A stretch of 64,000 nt of DNA from NCBI GenBank assembly GCA_019636385.1, contig JAHBXT010000001.1, positions 1-64,000 on the forward strand, read 5' to 3'. Each line of letters starts with the position of its first letter. Within the stretch, counting starts at the first letter, position 1. The stretch comes from Pirellulaceae bacterium (GTDB taxonomy: Bacteria > Planctomycetota > Planctomycetia > Pirellulales > Pirellulaceae). Made by a program: the position numbers and the translations under genes. The notes beneath the pieces were generated by a model. That model saw nothing but the letters and a program-made list of their open reading frames with translations. It was not told the DNA's origin and searched no databases. Positions 11,896-20,505 of this stretch are shown piece by piece.

Positions 11896-13502
11896 ATGAT
11901 TGATCAGTCGACCGCTGTACTGCCGTCGGTAACCCGGATTTTTGAGTGTGTCCAGCATTGGGCGCGCGTTACACCGGATTCGGAAGCTATTGTTTTCCAA
12001 GACCGGCGGCTGACCTATGCCGAACTGCAAGCAGCCATCGATAGAGCAGCTCGAGCGTTGCTGGCCGCCGGCACTCGGCCTGGCGATCGGGTGGCCATGC
12101 TGGCAATGGCATGTCCAGAATTCATGATTACGTTTTTGGCCGCCAGTCAAGTCGGTGCGATGTGGTTGGGATTGAATCCCAAGCTGAGCGCTCGCGAGTT
12201 GAGTTACATCCTGAACGATTGTCGCCCCAAGCTGTTGTTCACAGTGGATAGCTATGGCGGCAAGTCCATGGCGGAGGAGTTGGCGCGAGTCGATTTGAAA
12301 GGCGCTGGCGTCGACGCGACAGTTGTCATGGGCCAGCCGTGGGCAGGTGTTCGGTCGTATCATGAATTCACAGCCGCAAGTGTCCACGACCTGACGTCTG
12401 AACTGGCAGCACGTGCTGCCCAGGTACAACCAGACGATGATGTGTTACTGATGTATACGTCGGGCTCGACGGGACAACCCAAAGGTGTAATTCAGACGCA
12501 TCACAGTATTTTGGTTAATGTTCAACAACAGGCGCGCTGCTTTTACATGGATCGCTCCACGCGGTCTCTGCTGCACTTTCCCATCAATCACGTGGCCGCC
12601 GATGTTGAAATTGGCTATGCGACGATGTTCATCGGCGAGCGCTGGTCATGATGGATCGCTTTGATCCGGCGGCGACCTGAAATACTGGGCCGTGAAAGAC
12701 ACGATGCTGGGCAGATTCCGGCCATGTTCTTGATGCAGCCACTTTTGCCCCAGTTTCGCGAACACGGACTTCAGTGGCCTGAAAGGCAATTATGTGGGGA
12801 GGTGCGCAGCCCCCATGAAACTGTTGCCCGGACTCAAGCAAATCAGTCAAGCGACGGTGCTATGCTGATGACTGGGTATGGTTCGACTGAGGCGTGCGGT
12901 TTCATTACCTATACAACCAACTGACGATTTGGAGCAGTTGGCTACCAGCGTGGGCCGCGCCTGAAGTTTGAGCTGGCAGTTGACGACCAGCGACAGCCAC
13001 TGCCAACCGGACACTGGAGCTCGCGATTCGCGGACCGTTTCTGTTTAGGAGTATCTCAATAAACCCGAAGCGACAGCTCAGGGCCAAAAAGATGCCGATG
13101 GCTGGTTTTTACACTGGCGACCTGGGCTATCTGGACGGCGCGGTGCTGTATCTAAACGGCCGCAAATCAGAGATGTATAAGACAGGTGGCGAGAATGTCT
13201 TTCCGCGCGAGATCGAAGATGTATTGTGTGAACATCCAGCGGTGGCATTGGCAGCCGTGATCGGCGTGTCCGACCCGTTGTATCAGGAGGTTGGTTATGC
13301 ACTGGTTATGCTGCGTCCTGGCGCGTCCATTACGCCTGACCAGCTCAAAGAGCATTGCCAGTCGCACCTAGTGAACTTCAAAGTCCCCAAGACGATTGAA
13401 ATCCGCCCGATGTTGCCGCTGCTGGCCAATGGCAAAGTGAACAAGTTAGAACTCAAACGCGAAATTGCAGCCACGACTACGAGCCATGGTGCTACGCCGT
13501 AG
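11896..13502 (+). pseudogene. AMP-dependent acyl-CoA/acyl ligase, left copy with many frameshifts
   Basis: An ANL-superfamily adenylating enzyme. The first 246 residues read cleanly and include the P-loop MYTSGSTGQPKGV (about 12454-12492). From about 12632 to 13145 the sequence matches the intact copy at 18365-19387 but with about 25 single-base gains or losses, so no frame survives; the last 115 codons (13150-13502) are in frame again and hold GRKSEMYKTGGENVFPREIE and the catalytic Lys region NGKVNK. The differences cluster in short homopolymers and hardly include substitutions, so they may be sequencing errors rather than decay. If corrected, the gene would encode a full ligase of about 535 residues. 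Confidence 0.85.
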
Positions 13503-13662
13503 GGGTGGGACGCGCCACGCTGCTGCACTGTATAATATTTGAATCACAACAGTTATCAAGACAGGACAGCACGATGACACCCATGTTAATTTATGGTGCC
13601 AATGGTTACACCGGTGAACTCATTACGCGACTGTCCGTCGAGCGCGGCATGCGTCCGCTGCT
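12499..13662. repeat. Direct repeat, left copy (ligase 3' part and reductase 5' end)
   Basis: This stretch is repeated at 18365-19547 in the same orientation. Homology begins just after the ligase P-loop (CATCACAG at 12499 and 18365) and ends at the TA next to the left inverted repeat of the IS630-type element. The outer parts are nearly identical; the middle carries many one-base indels. Together with the right copy it brackets the IS, the integron and the gene at 17910. Confidence 0.93.
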
Positions 13663-13681: not shown

Positions 13682-14701
13682 TGTAGCGTCGGATGTAGCG
13701 GATTTGCTTTAATACATTTTGCCCAAGGAGGTGGCCAAATGCGTGCTTATTCGATGGATTTGAGAATTCGTGTACTCAAGGCCTGTGATTCAGGGTTGGG
13801 AACGACGGAAGTTGCCGAATTGTTTGACGTGTCGACCGCTTGGATTCGAAGGCTCAAGCAACGCCGTCGTGAAACAGGTCAAATCGGTGCTCGTGAGCAA
13901 AGACACGGCCCGCTTCCCAAACTACACGGACACGAAGAGGAGCTCGTGAGAATTGTCGAGGAACAGCCGGATCGAACGGCCAAAGGAAATCGCGGCATTA
14001 CTTCCGCTTTGCATCGCATCAAACCGTCGACCGCTTTGTTCGTCGTTTGAACTATCGATTTAAAAAAAGACATTGACGGCGGCCGAGCAGCAGCGGCCTG
14101 ATGTAGCAGAGAAGCGGCTGCGATGGCGTCGTTGGTGCCACACCTGGACGCAAGGCGATTTGTCTTTCTCGATGAGATCTTGGCAAAAACAAATATGTCA
14201 CGCTTAGAGGTAGAGCCCTCCCGGGCAAGCGAATCATCGGAAATGATCCCCCACGGCCATTGGAAAACCACGACTGTATTGATGGGACTACGATCCGAAG
14301 GAATCGTATCTCCATTGGTCATTGATGGGCCGGTGAACGGTTTCGGTCTTTCTAGCTTGGATAAAACAGCAGTTCTGCAAAGAGCTTCGCTATAAAGACA
14401 TTGTCGTCATGGACAATCTCTCGGGCACTTTCAAAGTCGCCGGAGTCGTCGAAAGCCTTATCGAGTCGGTTGGCGTTCGCTACCTTCCCTGCCCGCCCGA
14501 CCCTGGGAACCCGATCGAAAATCTCTGCAGTAAACTAAAGTGGCTGATTCGAAGCGAGGCGACCCGGACCGTCCAAGCCCTCTGGAACGCAGTTGGCAAA
14601 CTGGTCGACCGATTCCATCCGAAGGAATGCCTCAACTACATTATCCATGCCGGATATCGCCTGAAGAATACAGCCGCTACAACTACTTGAGGTCTGCTCT
14701 A
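13662..14701 (+). mobile_element. IS630-family insertion sequence, degenerate
   Basis: About 1.04 kb bounded by matching inverted ends: left CTAGAGCAGACCTCGA, right (reversed) CTAGAGCAGACCTCAA. A TA dinucleotide stands at each outer edge (13662-13663 and 14700-14701), as expected for the TA target duplication of IS630/Tc1-type elements. Inside is a broken transposase. The left edge touches the end of the duplicated ligase/reductase segment and the right edge touches a truncated integron cassette, so the two flanks do not rejoin into one target gene; a deletion or rearrangement followed insertion. Confidence 0.85.
13739..14690 (+). pseudogene. IS630-family transposase, several frameshifts
   Basis: The first part (13739 to about 13985, MRAYSMDLRIRVLKACDSG...) is the helix-turn-helix domain of IS630 transposases. 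Later pieces lie in different frames: RRLNYRFKK and TLTAAEQQRPDVAEKRLRWRR around 14040-14120, RFVFLDEILAKTNM with the first catalytic Asp at about 14156-14197, PHGHWKTTTVLMGLRSEGIV at 14250-14308, VVMDN with the second Asp near 14405, and NPIEN with the Glu near 14510. All three acidic residues survive but at least four frameshifts separate them. Either the element is dead or this stretch is of low sequence quality. Confidence 0.88.
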
Positions 14702-14882: not shown

Positions 14883-14968
14883 GCCGAACGACCCGGATCA
14901 CCGGGCCGGGAGTTATCTATCCATTGTCAACTCGGCTTTTCCGGCTCCGGTGCATCCGTTGGTTAGGA
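14883..14968 (-). other. attC site of cassette 2
   Basis: On the minus strand the site starts with R'' GTCCTAAC and ends with R' GTTCGGC. The arms AACCAACGGATGCACCGG and CCGGTGATCCGGGTCGTT pair with an extrahelical base and a few mismatches, the folded form that integron integrases use. R'' is exactly complementary to the first bases of this cassette (GTTAGGAC at 16033-16026), which proves that this attC and the gene at 14917-16014 travelled together as one cassette. The site overlaps the 3' end of the gene. Confidence 0.85.
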
Positions 14969-16014
14969 CTTCTTTCTGCGGATCCGTTGGATTTGGTTCC
15001 GGCGTGAAATTCATCCGCACCTTCCTTGACCGAATCATGACCTTCTTTACCGGTCTCGATTTTGTCGGCGCGTCGATTTTGATCGGTGTGAGCTTTTGGA
15101 TCGTGGTTTTCATTTGGGGGCTCAGTTTTTGGTTTGGGTAGGGCGAACTTGATTTTAACGAGCAAATCAGTCTGCGTGAAGTCTCTCAAAAAATCTCCAC
15201 CGAGCGTTTTGGCGTTACCGGATAGTAGGTTCTCAAAGAGTTTTTCTTCGATTGGATGTGGTCTGCGTACGCATTTGAACAGCTTATCCGCCTCACGGTA
15301 ATCGATTACGAAGGAGTGTGACGGATACTCTTCAATTAATGATCGCAAAGACGATTCCGACATTCCTAGTCGAATTCCGTATTGCATTGCAATATCTATC
15401 GACCGTTGAAGCTCGCCGATCCAAATCGGGTCGATTTTCTCAGTAATGGGTGCAAATAGTCCAATTGCTAGCTGATTCGCGATCTCAGACGCGGTTTTTG
15501 TCGTGATGATACCACCACTGCTAGTTCGCACTCTCAAAAAGTTCTCTTCCCACGCTTCAAATGCTTGCTTTGATACAAACTTGATGGCCTGAGAAATCGA
15601 TAGTCCTGAACTTCGGCGAACAAATTCATCTGGGCTAAATACTTGAACATCCAGAGGCCCTAATTCACCGCATGGAGCTATCACCAATTCGGTGGCTCCA
15701 ATTGCCATAAGAGTCCCAGCGCTCTTGCAAGCTCCCCACACGCCAACGACGAAGTCGTCATACGATACTTGAAAATGTCTCGCGACCCGATACGCAGCAT
15801 CGGCGTCGCCACCGGGAGTCGTGAGCAGCAGGAAAGCGCGTTTATTTCCAGAAACGCCGATATGTGGTCGCAGAAGTTTGTGCAGTACGGGGTGTATGTC
15901 ACCGTTGTAGATGAACACGTCGCTATTGAGCAATTTGGCATCTGCCAACTGGTCTAGTTCGTCTTGGTCGTCGTCGGCAAAGGCTACTTCGACTTCGGCG
16001 AAATTCATGTTCAT
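14917..16014 (-). CDS. SDH-family serine protease (ClpP/crotonase fold), integron cassette 2
   Basis: A 365-residue protein of the serine dehydrogenase proteinase family (ClpP/SppA-like fold). Key stretches are LLTTPGGDADAAYRVARHF, the nucleophile region GACKSAGTLMAIGATELVIAP (Ser in KSAGT) and GELGPLDVQV. It lacks a signal peptide or clear membrane helix, so a cytoplasmic place is likely. After about residue 295 comes a polar, Lys/Glu/Pro-rich tail; the last 15 residues (NQRMHRSRKSRVDNG) are encoded by the attC site, as is common in cassette genes. The start follows the cassette boundary by only 18 bases. Its benefit to the host is unknown. Confidence 0.85.
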   Translation of the reverse strand: MNMNFAEVEVAFADDDQDELDQLADAKLLNSDVFIYNGDIHPVLHKLLRPHIGVSGNKRAFLLLTTPGGDADAAYRVARHFQVSYDDFVVGVWGACKSAGTLMAIGATELVIAPCGELGPLDVQVFSPDEFVRRSSGLSISQAIKFVSKQAFEAWEENFLRVRTSSGGIITTKTASEIANQLAIGLFAPITEKIDPIWIGELQRSIDIAMQYGIRLGMSESSLRSLIEEYPSHSFVIDYREADKLFKCVRRPHPIEEKLFENLLSGNAKTLGGDFLRDFTQTDLLVKIKFALPKPKTEPPNENHDPKAHTDQNRRADKIETGKEGHDSVKEGADEFHAGTKSNGSAERSPNQRMHRSRKSRVDNG

Positions 16015-16026
16015 GGTCTTTCAATG

Positions 16027-16086
16027 TCCTAACACCTGAATTAAGCCGCGCCGCGAAGCGGCGTCGGCTTGAATGAATTGTTAGAT
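16027..16086 (-). other. attC site of cassette 1
   Basis: A textbook 60-base attC on the minus strand: R'' ATCTAAC, an arm ending AAGCCGACGCCGC, a TTC turn, the second arm GCGGCGCGGCTT, and R' GTTAGGA. Its layout is that of the short sites of class 1 integron cassettes. R'' extended (TGGCATCTAAC) is the exact complement of the start of cassette 1 (GTTAGATGCCA, 16544-16534), which fixes cassette 1 as 16033-16543. Confidence 0.95.
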
Positions 16087-16096
16087 GCCAGCCCGA

Positions 16097-16429
16097 TCAA
16101 TGTGCGCTGACCTTGGATAGCAGATTTAGAACGGCGACGCCACTAACGATAAGTCCCATGCCAACGAACGCCCACAAGTCTAGTTTCTGGCCATGGAAGA
16201 TCCAAGCGATAGCTGCCACAAGTACGATGCCGAGGCCAGCCCAAACAGCATAAGCAATGCCGACCGGGATGGACTTGAGTGCGAGAGAGAGGAAATAGAA
16301 CGCAAGCCCGTAGCCAGCCACAACTACAACAGAAGGAACTAACTTGGTGAATCCATGGCTGGACTTCAGTGCGGAAGTTGCGACGACCTCACCAAATATT
16401 GCAATAGCCAGAAAGAGCCAGTTCTTCAC
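16097..16429 (-). CDS. Small multidrug resistance (Qac-type) efflux protein, integron cassette 1
   Basis: A 110-residue, four-helix SMR transporter that works as a dimer and exchanges protons for lipophilic cations such as quaternary ammonium compounds. The essential Glu lies in helix 1 ([17 protein letters not shown]), and [23 protein letters not shown] is the family signature. The sequence is very close in pattern to the QacE/QacF/QacH proteins of class 1 integrons, including the ending [16 protein letters not shown] use the GTG at 16429 (giving MKNWLFL) because GGAG lies seven bases upstream and the family starts there. The gene fills a 511-base cassette with its own attC. Confidence 0.93.
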
Positions 16430-16537
16430 GTGCAATCTCCTCTACGGTATGAAGGAGAAATAGTGGTGGCTATGAGTTGCCAAAAACAGTCTTGCGGCTG
16501 TCGATTTTCTGTGAGCATACGCAACGCCAAATCTGGC

Positions 16538-16544
16538 ATCTAAC
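16538..16544 (-). other. attI x attC crossover point
   Basis: The minus strand reads GTTAGAT here, a perfect GTTRRRY core. The bases that follow are complementary to R'' of the attC at 16027-16086, so this is where cassette 1 was inserted. The integron's attI site therefore lies between here and the intI stop at 16686. No further simple GTT-type integrase sites are obvious in it, but the stretch holds the promoter and palindromes listed separately. Confidence 0.85.
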
Positions 16545-16551
16545 TTATTAT

Positions 16552-16597
16552 TAGGCTGATCAGCCTACTACCTGTAGGCCGCAAATTTGCAGCCTAC
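16552..16597. repeat. Two adjacent palindromes in the attI region
   Basis: TAGGCTGATCAGCCTA (16552-16567) is a perfect 16-base palindrome. Six bases on, GTAGGC (16574-16579) and GCCTAC (16592-16597) flank the inner palindrome GCAAATTTGC, giving a second one broken by a single C/A mismatch. Both share the AGGC/GCCT core. They lie between the candidate promoter and cassette 1, so they could be operators, leader hairpins or integrase contact sites. Confidence 0.7.
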
Positions 16598-16626
16598 CAC
16601 ACAGGCGTTGTTGTTTTGTAAGTCAT

Positions 16627-16655
16627 ATTGTAACAATCACTTAAGTATTTGTCAC
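16627..16655 (-). promoter_or_regulatory. Candidate cassette promoter (Pc)
   Basis: On the minus strand GTGACA (16655-16650) and TACAAT (16632-16627) are separated by exactly 17 bases, each one base off the sigma-70 consensus hexamer. Transcription would start near 16620 and run through the attI junction into the SMR and protease cassettes. Having it between intI and the first cassette fits an integron whose integrase gene is not divergent from its cassettes. Confidence 0.6.
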
Positions 16656-16671
16656 GCTAGTCTGTGCGTGA

Positions 16672-16688
16672 TAGGCTGTTTCAGCCTA
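16672..16688. repeat. Third AGGCTG/CAGCCT inverted repeat, at the intI stop
   Basis: TAGGCTG and CAGCCTA with a three-base loop; the right arm contains the last bases of intI. It repeats the motif of the palindrome at 16552. It could end the intI message, but has no U-tract. Confidence 0.6.
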
Positions 16689-17720
16689 GCGCTCAGCGGG
16701 CCGGCGAACCAGAACGTCGGCGGGGCTACGAACGCCTCGCCCACCTCGGTTCAAGACATGGGTGTAAATCATGGTCGTACGAACGTCGCTATGGCCAAGC
16801 AACTCCTGCACGGTGCGAATGTCATAGCCGTCTGCGAGCAGGTGTGTGGCGAATGAATGCCGGAATGTGTGGCTGGTGACCCGCTTGGTGAGTCCCGCCT
16901 GTCGGACAGCGGACGCCACCGCCCTCTGAACCAGAGACTCATCGACGTGATGACGGCCCTGTTCGCCAGTCTGACGATTGCGCCAGCGATGCTCCTGCGG
17001 GAACACGAACTGCCAGCGCCACTCGCGATTGGCGTTCGGGTACTTGCGAGCGAGGGCATGCGGCAACTCCACACGACCGAATCCATCGGCCGCGTCCTGC
17101 CGGTGAACCGCCTCGACGCGCCGGAGATGCTCCTGCAAGGGGTGGATGATCGCATGCGGCAACATCGTGATACGATCTTTATCGCCTTTTCCCTCGCGAA
17201 CGGTGATTTCACCGCGTTCAAAATCCAGATCCTTTACTCGCAAGCGGAGTGCTTCAAGCAGTCGCAGCCCGCCGCCATACAGCAGCATCGCGATCAACCA
17301 TTTGTCTCCTCTAAAGTACATCATCACCCGCGACACTTCGTCCACCGTCAGCACGACCGGTAGTCGCCTCGGCCGACGGGCTCGAACGACGCCTTCGATG
17401 CGGTCGAGCGGCTTTTCCAGGGCATGCTGGTAGAGAAACAAAACGGCGGACAGAGCTTGGTTCTGCGTCGAGGCGGCAACGTGTTCCTTGACGGCCAGAT
17501 GGGTCAGGAAGCGGTTGACATCACCCTCCGCCAGTAGTCGGGGATGATTGTGATCATGGAACTCGATGTAGCGGCGAATCCAGTGGAGGTAGGCCTCTTC
17601 AGTGCGGCGGCTGTAATGGCGAACTCGCAAAACTTCGACGATGCGGTCGTAGAGACGAGGCACGGGCTTATCGGCATACAAACCCAAGGGCGTTCGGTGT
17701 TGCTCCGTTGCTGTCGTCAT
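16686..17720 (-). CDS. intI: Integron integrase
   Basis: A 344-residue tyrosine recombinase of the IntI class. Catalytic residues are Arg153 ([13 protein letters not shown]), His284 and Arg287 ([13 protein letters not shown]), His310 (LLGHSDVRT) and Tyr319 ([11 protein letters not shown]). The insertion that sets IntI apart from other integrases is present at about 222-242 ([21 protein letters not shown]), and the ends [27 protein letters not shown] and [12 protein letters not shown] are also typical. The cassettes lie beyond its 3' end on the same strand, the reverse of the common class 1 layout. A gene of unknown function diverges from it 189 bases upstream. Confidence 0.95.
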
Positions 17721-18364: not shown

Positions 18365-18412
18365 CATCACAGCATTTTGGTTAATGTTCAACAACAGGCG
18401 CGCTGCTTTTAC

Positions 18413-19387
18413 ATGGATCGCTCCACGCGGTCTCTGCTGCACTTTCCCATCAATCACGTGGCCGCCGATGTTGAAATTGGCTATGCGACGATGTTCATCG
18501 GCGGTGCGCTGGTTATGATGGATCGCTTTGATCCGGCGGCGACCCTGGAAATACTGGGCCGTGAAAAGATCACGATGCTGGGCCAGATTCCGGCCATGTT
18601 CTTGATGCAAGCCACTTTGCCCAGTTTCGCGAACACGGACTTCAGTGGCCTGAAGGCAATTATGTGGGGAGGTGCAGCAGCCCCCATGAAACTGTTGCGC
18701 GGACTCAAGCAAATCAGTCAAGCGACCGGTGCTATGCTGATGACTGGGTATGGTTCGACTGAGGCGTGCGGTTTCATTACCTATACACAACCGACTGACG
18801 ATTTGGAGCAGTTGGCTACCAGCGTGGGCCGTGCGCCTGAAGGATTTGAGCTGCGCATAGTTGACGACCAGCGACAGCCACTGCCAACCGGACAATTGGG
18901 CGAGCTCGCGATTCGCGGACCGTTTCTGTTTAAGGAGTATCTCAATAAACCCGAAGCGACAGCTCAGGCCAAAGATGCCGATGGCTGGTTTTACACTGGC
19001 GACCTGGGCTATCTCGACGAGCGCGGGGTGCTGTATCTAAACGGCCGCAAATCAGAGATGTATAAGACAGGTGGCGAGAATGTCTTTCCGCGCGAGATCG
19101 AAGATGTATTGTGTGAACATCCAGCGGTGGCATTGGCAGCCGTGATCGGCGTGTCCGACCCGTTGTATCAGGAGGTTGGTTATGCACTGGTTATGCTGCG
19201 TCCTGGCGCGTCCATTACGCCTGACCAGCTCAAAGAGCATTGCCAGTCGCACCTAGTGAACTTCAAAGTCCCCAAGACGATTGAAATCCGCCCGATGTTG
19301 CCGCTGCTAGCCAATGGCAAAGTGAACAAGTTAGAACTCAAACGCGAAATTGCAGCCACGACGACGAGCCATGGTGCTGCGCCGTAG
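18413..19387 (+). pseudogene. Acyl ligase, 5'-truncated right copy
   Basis: The frame from HHSILVNVQQQ onward is open to the stop and carries the later ANL motifs: TGYGSTEACG, GWFYTGDLGYLD, GRKSEMYKTGGENVFPREIE and the catalytic-Lys region PLLANGKVNKLEL. It lacks the first 200 or so residues, including the ATP P-loop TSGSTGQPKG, which exists only in the left copy. The first internal ATG is at 18413. A protein from here could not adenylate a substrate. Joined to the first 730 bases of the left copy it would make a complete ligase of about 535 residues. Confidence 0.88.
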
Positions 19388-19415
19388 GGGTGGGACGTCC
19401 CAGCCTGCTGCACTG

Positions 19416-19421
19416 TATAAT
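19416..19421 (+). promoter_or_regulatory. Possible -10 hexamer of the reductase gene
   Basis: A perfect TATAAT, 38 bases before the ATG at 19459 and 28 bases after the ligase stop. No good -35 hexamer is seen at 16-18 bases. The same element is present in the left copy near 13531. Confidence 0.3.
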
Positions 19422-19458
19422 ATTTGAATCACAACAGTTATCAAGACAGGACAGCACG

Positions 19459-20505
19459 ATGACACCCATGTTAATTTATGGTGCCAATGGTTACACCGGT
19501 GAACTCATTACGCGACTGTCCGTCGAGCGCGGCATGCGTCCGCTGCTCGCGGGCCGCAATGAAGCGGCGGTTGGAGCTTTGGCGAAGCGATTCGACCTGC
19601 CGTATCGCGTTTGCGGCTTGGACATACCACAGAAGCTGGACGCGGTCCTGAACGAAGTTGCCATGGTCATACACTGTGCCGGTCCATTTAGTGTGACCTG
19701 GAAGTCTATGGTCGATGCCTGCCTGAGGACGCGCAAGCACTATACTGATATTACCGGAGAGATCGCTGTGTTCGAGTCCTGTGCGCAGACCGATGCCAAG
19801 GCGTGCCAGGCCGGAATCATGGTCATGCCAGGCGTTGGCTTTGACGTGGTGCCCAGCGACTGTTTAGCCTTGCATCTGAAAAACCGCTTGCCGTCGGCTA
19901 CCGAACTGTGGCTGGCGTTTCATGGCATCGGACGACTTTCGCACGGAACACAAGCCACGATGACCAAGAATATTGGGCACGGGGGAGCCGTTCGTCGAGA
20001 CGGAAAAATCACCCCGGTGCCTGCCGCCTGGAAGTTTCGAAATATCGACTTTGGCACTGGTAGCCAGTCAGCGGTCACAATTCCTTGGGGGGACGTTTCT
20101 ACCGCCTATTATTCGACAGGCATTCCAAACATCGAAGTCTATTCAGTAATGCCCAGGTCGGTCGTCCAGGGCATGAAACTGACACGTTACCTGGGATGGC
20201 TGCTGGCCAGCGGCCCGGTGCAAAAGTACTTGCAGAAGCAGATCCCGGCCGGAGGACCTTCAGACAAGCAGCGTAGCGAAGGAAAATCGCTTCTCTGGGG
20301 CTTGGCTCGTGATGCGAGTGGCCGCGAGGTAGAATCGCGACTTCAAGGACCGGAAGGATATACTCTGACTGCGCTGACGGCGTTGCTGGTTGCCGAAAAA
20401 ATTCTAGCCGGGCAATTTCAAGCTGGTTTTCGCACACCAGCACAGGCTTACGGTGCCGACTTGATTATGGAGATTGATTCTGTGCAACGCCAGGATGTAC
20501 GCTAG
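19459..20505 (+). CDS. Saccharopine-dehydrogenase-like NAD(P)-dependent oxidoreductase
   Basis: A 348-residue protein with an N-terminal Rossmann turn (MLIYGANGYTGELITRL), HCAGPFSVTWKSMVDACLRTRKHYTDITGE and GVGFDVVPSDCLALHL, the pattern of the Sacchrp_dh_NADP family that includes the trans-acting enoyl reductases of mycobacterial lipid synthesis. It is downstream of a MaoC-like protein and an acyl ligase, so an acyl or polyketide-like substrate is more likely than lysine metabolism. The ATG at 19459 is chosen because the fold starts there. This is the only gene of the three that is clearly intact beside the mobile insertion. Confidence 0.85.
   Translation: MTPMLIYGANGYTGELITRLSVERGMRPLLAGRNEAAVGALAKRFDLPYRVCGLDIPQKLDAVLNEVAMVIHCAGPFSVTWKSMVDACLRTRKHYTDITGEIAVFESCAQTDAKACQAGIMVMPGVGFDVVPSDCLALHLKNRLPSATELWLAFHGIGRLSHGTQATMTKNIGHGGAVRRDGKITPVPAAWKFRNIDFGTGSQSAVTIPWGDVSTAYYSTGIPNIEVYSVMPRSVVQGMKLTRYLGWLLASGPVQKYLQKQIPAGGPSDKQRSEGKSLLWGLARDASGREVESRLQGPEGYTLTALTALLVAEKILAGQFQAGFRTPAQAYGADLIMEIDSVQRQDVR

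Follow-up and report, generated by a model that had tools for sequence, protein, structure and literature searches.

A conserved attI module with putative integrase contacts around the cassette promoter of an inverted planctomycete integron

Architecture of the integron and its attachment site

The window, i.e., the whole stretch of 64,000 nucleotides analyzed here, carries a chromosomal integron on its minus strand. Its integrase gene, intI, reads toward the cassettes in the same orientation as these, and the attachment site lies behind the intI stop codon, which is the arrangement of an inverted integron. This site has the marks of an attI: it adjoins an integron integrase gene and includes an R box of the form GTTRRRY with a G^TT junction and an inverted L box at recombinase spacing. 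From integrase to cassettes, the features are as follows.

16686–17720, minus strand: intI, integron integrase (TIGR02249, 467 bits vs a cut-off of 265)
16537–16697, minus strand: conserved attI–Pc module of ~161 bp, from the intI stop to the crossover plus a few bases (23-copy alignment and model matches in the order)
16688–16672, minus strand: palindrome 3, TAGGCTG-AAA-CAGCCTA, with perfect arms and a loop of 3, formed by inverted half-sites TAGGCnG; 16666–16688 with its prolonged right arm
16652–16671, minus strand: dyad TCACGC-N8-GCGTGA, seen in the sequence and overlapping the −35 box; arms common in relatives
16627–16655, minus strand: predicted cassette promoter Pc, GTGACA-17-TACAAT
16597–16574, minus strand: palindrome 2, GTAGGCTGCAAATTTGCGGCCTAC, 11 of 12 pairs; 16574–16604 with its prolonged left box
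16567–16552, minus strand: palindrome 1, TAGGCTGATCAGCCTA, perfect
16538–16544, minus strand: R box GTTAGAT, with the crossover at G16544^T16543; GTT nearly invariant in relatives
16033–16543, minus strand: cassette 1, carrying qacL (16097–16429) and identified by a 518-bp identity to plasmid qacL cassettes
16027–16086, minus strand: attC of cassette 1, canonical, 60 bp, in R''/L''/L'/R' arrangement
14917–16014, minus strand: gene of the next cassette, an SDH/ClpP-like serine protease (weak family match, under curated cut-offs)

An initial annotation of this DNA had proposed three palindromes, one of them at the intI stop, and a promoter motif GTGACA-17-TACAAT directed toward the cassettes. 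On inspection of the sequence, all of these were present at the proposed positions, on the minus strand in the gap that separates the intI stop from cassette 1. That annotation did not include the crossover G^TT just past palindrome 1, the dyad on the −35 box, or the conservation of the whole stretch as one unit. The intI stop codon TAG provides the first three bases of palindrome 3, whose right arm is prolonged as GCCTATCACGC and reaches 16666, and the left box of palindrome 2 is prolonged as CTGCGYGTTAGGCYGCA in the module family. The right arm of palindrome 1 contains the simple site's L box, CCTA, and the palindrome is followed on the minus strand by ATAATAAG^TTAGATG. Read 5' to 3' on that strand, the half-sites come in the order left and right arm of palindrome 3 (p3-left, p3-right), Pc, p2-left, p2-right, p1-left, p1-right (which holds the L box) and finally the R box, with an orientation that alternates along the strand. 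Five of the nine copies of TAGGCTG in the window fall inside these 137 bp. Such clustering is above chance: two distinct perfect inverted repeats (arms ≥7, loop ≤10) within 144 bp were seen in only 4 of 2000 shuffles, and in 2 of the 887 half-overlapping tiles into which the window was divided.

Cassette 1 encodes a QacL-type SMR efflux protein associated with disinfectant resistance. A stretch of 518 bp (16029–16546) is identical to qacL cassettes carried by plasmids of clinical bacteria, such as pWTJH36 of Pseudomonas aeruginosa, with an identity that begins at AAG^TTAG and ends at GTTAG, i.e., at the cassette borders, outside of which the two sequences differ. Because the identity stops at these borders, we place the crossover between 16544 and 16543 and conclude that the attI took up this cassette recently. 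The presence of an identical qacL cassette in a planctomycete chromosomal integron, on a contig of 1.56 Mb, indicates recent cross-phylum cassette exchange and shows that this integron and clinical class 1 integrons have had cassettes in common in recent time. For the attI region itself, a sequence search found no relative among plasmids. In addition, a ~1.2-kb direct repeat (12499–13662 and 18365–19547, 96% identical) with an acyl-CoA synthetase-like gene flanks both the integron and a transposase-like region at 13739–14690, and the whole segment may have arrived with a duplication.

Conservation of the module and its promoter

DNA comparison matched the stretch in 21 of 199 genomes belonging to its family. 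When 23 copies were aligned, nearly all rows measured 161–162 nt. A sequence-only model derived from this alignment matched modules in 68 of the 296 genomes sampled from the order. Of 392 genomes drawn from the phylum, 20 gave matches, and 18 of these belonged to the same class. Judged from these matches, the attI–Pc module is conserved across one class of Planctomycetota and can be aligned between genera and families. When the same model was run on the contigs of IntI relatives, mostly outside Planctomycetota, only marginal matches were obtained, and the attI sites of these relatives are therefore different or too diverged.

Next, we compared blocks within the module across 65 non-redundant copies. 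Since copies were collected by similarity, their overall likeness is partly built in, and the informative quantity is the contrast between internal blocks. Mean information per position was high in the boxes of palindromes 3, 2, and 1, in the −35 and −10 hexamers, and in the GTT of the R box, and low in the spacer behind palindrome 3, the 17-nt promoter spacer, and the leader. The conserved blocks thus correspond to six half-sites TAGGC[n]G, with the variable base at the same place in each, and to both promoter hexamers; the half-site includes the tail of the integrase core GTTRRRY. The initial annotation had made its reading depend on whether the palindromes are conserved in related integrons, and a lack of conservation, which would have refuted it, was not observed. 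What relatives keep, however, are half-sites at fixed positions and not perfect palindromes, with palindrome 1 perfect in the window and imperfect in most relatives.

The right arm of palindrome 3 is better conserved than its left arm. This asymmetry bears on the idea that palindrome 3, which overlaps the intI stop codon, merely terminates intI or forms a hairpin at its 3' end and has no relation to palindromes 1 and 2. Given also that no T run follows it and that it is kept in copies without a detectable upstream intI, we give this idea hardly any credence; palindrome 3 is taken as part of the module because it persists where intI has been lost.

The predicted Pc comprises the hexamers GTGACA (16655–16650) and TACAAT (16632–16627), with 10 of 12 matches to the consensus and a TG preceding the −10 box, and would start transcripts at ~16620, ~76 bp ahead of the crossover. 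A promoter match of this quality is by itself at chance level (4 found vs 4.1 expected in 6 kb), and Pc is credible only because its hexamers are conserved across copies: in ~39 of the 65 copies they stand at the same position, 17 nt apart. A best promoter score of 9/12 or more was reached by 44 of the 65 copies vs 4 of 65 shuffled ones, although shuffle controls ignore that the copies share ancestry. Located upstream of the crossover, aimed into the cassettes, and conserved, this sigma-70-type promoter has the properties of a Pc.

The attI is the least understood part of integrons and is often treated as poorly conserved. An attI that can be aligned together with its promoter across genera and families makes both its IntI contacts and a link between recombination and expression directly testable.

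Solo modules in genomes without a recognizable integrase

An integron integrase scoring above the curated cut-off was found in 17 of the 68 genomes of the order with module matches, and the other 51 had no recognizable one, an absence that was judged by one family model and may partly reflect incomplete or diverged genes. These 51 genomes, among which G042, G059, G162, G180, and G187 are single contigs with an estimated completeness of 95% or more, harbor one to eight dispersed solo modules each, at loci such as L176, L178, L179, L182, L183, and L193–L199. Overall, modules tended to stand in front of a gene: of the 49 copies with flanks, 44 had a co-oriented open reading frame of at least 60 codons that started no more than 50 nt from the crossover, vs 15 on the divergent side. 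Homology to the 3' end of intI was detected upstream of 31 of the 65 non-redundant copies and, as a control, downstream of none, and a recognizable attC followed the module in 6 of 63 copies with a strict detector, vs 2 in shuffles. Some loci (L176, L178, L179, and L182) have a tandem arrangement of module, gene, and module. The genes behind other modules are diverse according to Pfam, and include a GDSL lipase, RibD, a glyoxalase, the N-terminus of HsdM, and unknown proteins.

Like the tandem loci, delta-attI-type cassettes and the attI1-ORF-attI1 arrangement have genes delimited by attI-type sites in place of attC (PMC12901181). Those cases, however, mostly involve short attI fragments in clinical arrays, whereas the modules described here are near-complete, include a promoter, and are dispersed in chromosomes. 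Recombination between two attI sites is efficient for class 1 integrons (PMC12901181, PMC4792948). Solo modules may be leftovers retained as promoters, units mobilized by attI × attI recombination, or both. We also considered a more far-reaching scheme, in which dispersed attI–Pc modules form a self-standing unit of Planctomycetia that collects and expresses single genes, with no attC and in many cases no resident integrase. Integrases supplied in trans would move the modules by attI × attI recombination, and the modules would be retained because a host protein reads the half-sites; this scheme is speculative and probably incorrect. The solo modules suggest that loss of the integrase need not remove the attI, which can persist as a promoter before a captured gene. 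None of the established integron categories (complete, In0, and CALIN) names such a state.

Two further observations concern integrase-bearing genomes. On contig C1 of genome G338 (loci L187 and L188 at 2.05 and 4.12 Mb), intI, the module, and the following gene occur twice and are identical in the stretch compared. The genome to which the window belongs (G000) holds more integron integrase genes of other lineages (C1:720401–721363, C1:730514–731257, and C2:794149–795180), one of them with an internal stop, and on its contig C3 (2076–2454) an intI 3' end is followed by a second, degenerate attI module.

Integrase contacts and alternative readings of the half-sites

The best-supported interpretation of the palindromes is that they are candidate IntI contacts. 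We estimate a probability of roughly two in three that the stretch combines the attI of an inverted chromosomal integron with its cassette promoter Pc, and that the palindrome arms are where IntI binds a multi-box attI surrounding Pc. This estimate draws on what can be read from the DNA, namely the G^TT cassette junction, the CCTA-N7-GTT simple site, the conserved half-sites and hexamers, and the alternating orientation. The precise junction, the conserved module, and the conserved Pc hexamers likewise bear out two earlier proposals for this DNA, i.e., an attI region with a promoter and a dedicated recombination or control site. Specifically, IntI monomers would bind the half-sites, with the R and L boxes used for strand exchange and the remaining half-sites serving as accessory contacts in a role similar to that of DR1 and DR2 in attI1. 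Newly inserted cassettes would be transcribed from ~16620 by Pc, which lies between the outer boxes, and occupation of all boxes by an IntI complex would mask this promoter, making recombination and cassette expression mutually exclusive. Such a switch is plausible because palindrome 3 lies upstream of Pc and palindromes 2 and 1 downstream, so that the complex would extend over the promoter.

However, half-sites were no less conserved in 28 solo copies whose genomes had no recognizable integron integrase, a pattern that is not easily explained by IntI alone and because of which our confidence in the integrase reading is only moderate. The same pattern is the strongest argument for an alternative in which half-sites are operators of a host transcription factor controlling Pc, the attI proper being reduced to the L–R simple site in the last ~20 bp and the factor accounting for the conservation. 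Boxes flanking a promoter would fit such operators, as would one genome (G048) with eight module copies up to 38% different, in which boxes and hexamers have changed less than the remainder of the module. Yet the window shows no regulator gene linked to the site, the motif does not recur in the genome above the control count, and the half-site resembles the integrase core; we regard host operators as unlikely. Separately, a genome-wide operator regulon was rejected, as a pattern search of the genome returned 1 exact site, and 16 sites with up to 2 mismatches vs 23 for the control.

Folding offers another explanation, i.e., palindromes 1 and 2 as hairpins in the cassette mRNA leader, or a folded single strand of DNA that would be attC-like through pairing of p3-right with p2-left. 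The strand does fold better than shuffled versions (z of −4.8 as RNA and −3.8 as DNA), and p3-right and p2-left are complementary in an R''/R'-like manner and co-vary somewhat. Yet covariation is weak overall and equally present between non-neighbor boxes: the arms of palindrome 1 and of palindrome 3 show some, and those of palindrome 2 none. As the shuffles used for these figures take no account of relatedness, the figures are weak evidence. Palindrome 3 is moreover upstream of the predicted transcript start, an unsystematic look at the interval between palindromes 3 and 2 identified no L''/L' pair, and no Rfam family was matched, leaving this explanation very improbable. Strict hairpins are disfavored by the nil covariation of palindrome 2. 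For the dyad on the −35 box, no covariation of the arms was detected among relatives.

Regarding the integrase-contact reading, the closest comparison is with attI1 of class 1 integrons, which has an L box CCCTAAA, an R box GTTRRRY, and the accessory repeats DR1 and DR2 (PMC12901181). As in attI1, the R box is at the crossover, CCTA-N7-GTT provides a 7-nt L–R spacing, and further 5' boxes lie at similar distances (PMC12901181): GTTA-type boxes of attI1 are 33, 52, and 77 nt from the crossover and p2-left is 54 nt from it, a modest likeness in both sequence and distance with a shuffle frequency of 0.01–0.05. In contrast, attI1 spans 65 bp, has direct repeats, and is at the opposite end of intI (PMC12901181), whereas the accessory boxes here form inverted pairs, extend over ~150 bp to the intI stop, and enclose Pc.

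Inverted integrons are already known (PMC3607928), integron surveys have covered Rhodopirellula baltica (PMC3108266), and models exist for planctomycete attC sites (PMC8352920). In open-access full text, we found no earlier description of this attI architecture, of planctomycete attI sites, or of solitary or orphan attI modules. The inverted integrons of Treponema share the transcription of intI toward attI and cassettes, but their attI was located by an R-box match only, with no box array or promoter module described there (PMC3607928). A promoter in or near attI is also found in class 2 integrons and in the Vibrio cholerae superintegron, where Pc overlaps or faces the intI promoter (PMC5559693, PMC3948777); here, Pc instead lies behind the intI stop and points in the same direction as intI. 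The distance from transcript start to crossover is 65 bp in V. cholerae (PMC5559693, PMC3948777) and a predicted ~76 bp in the window.
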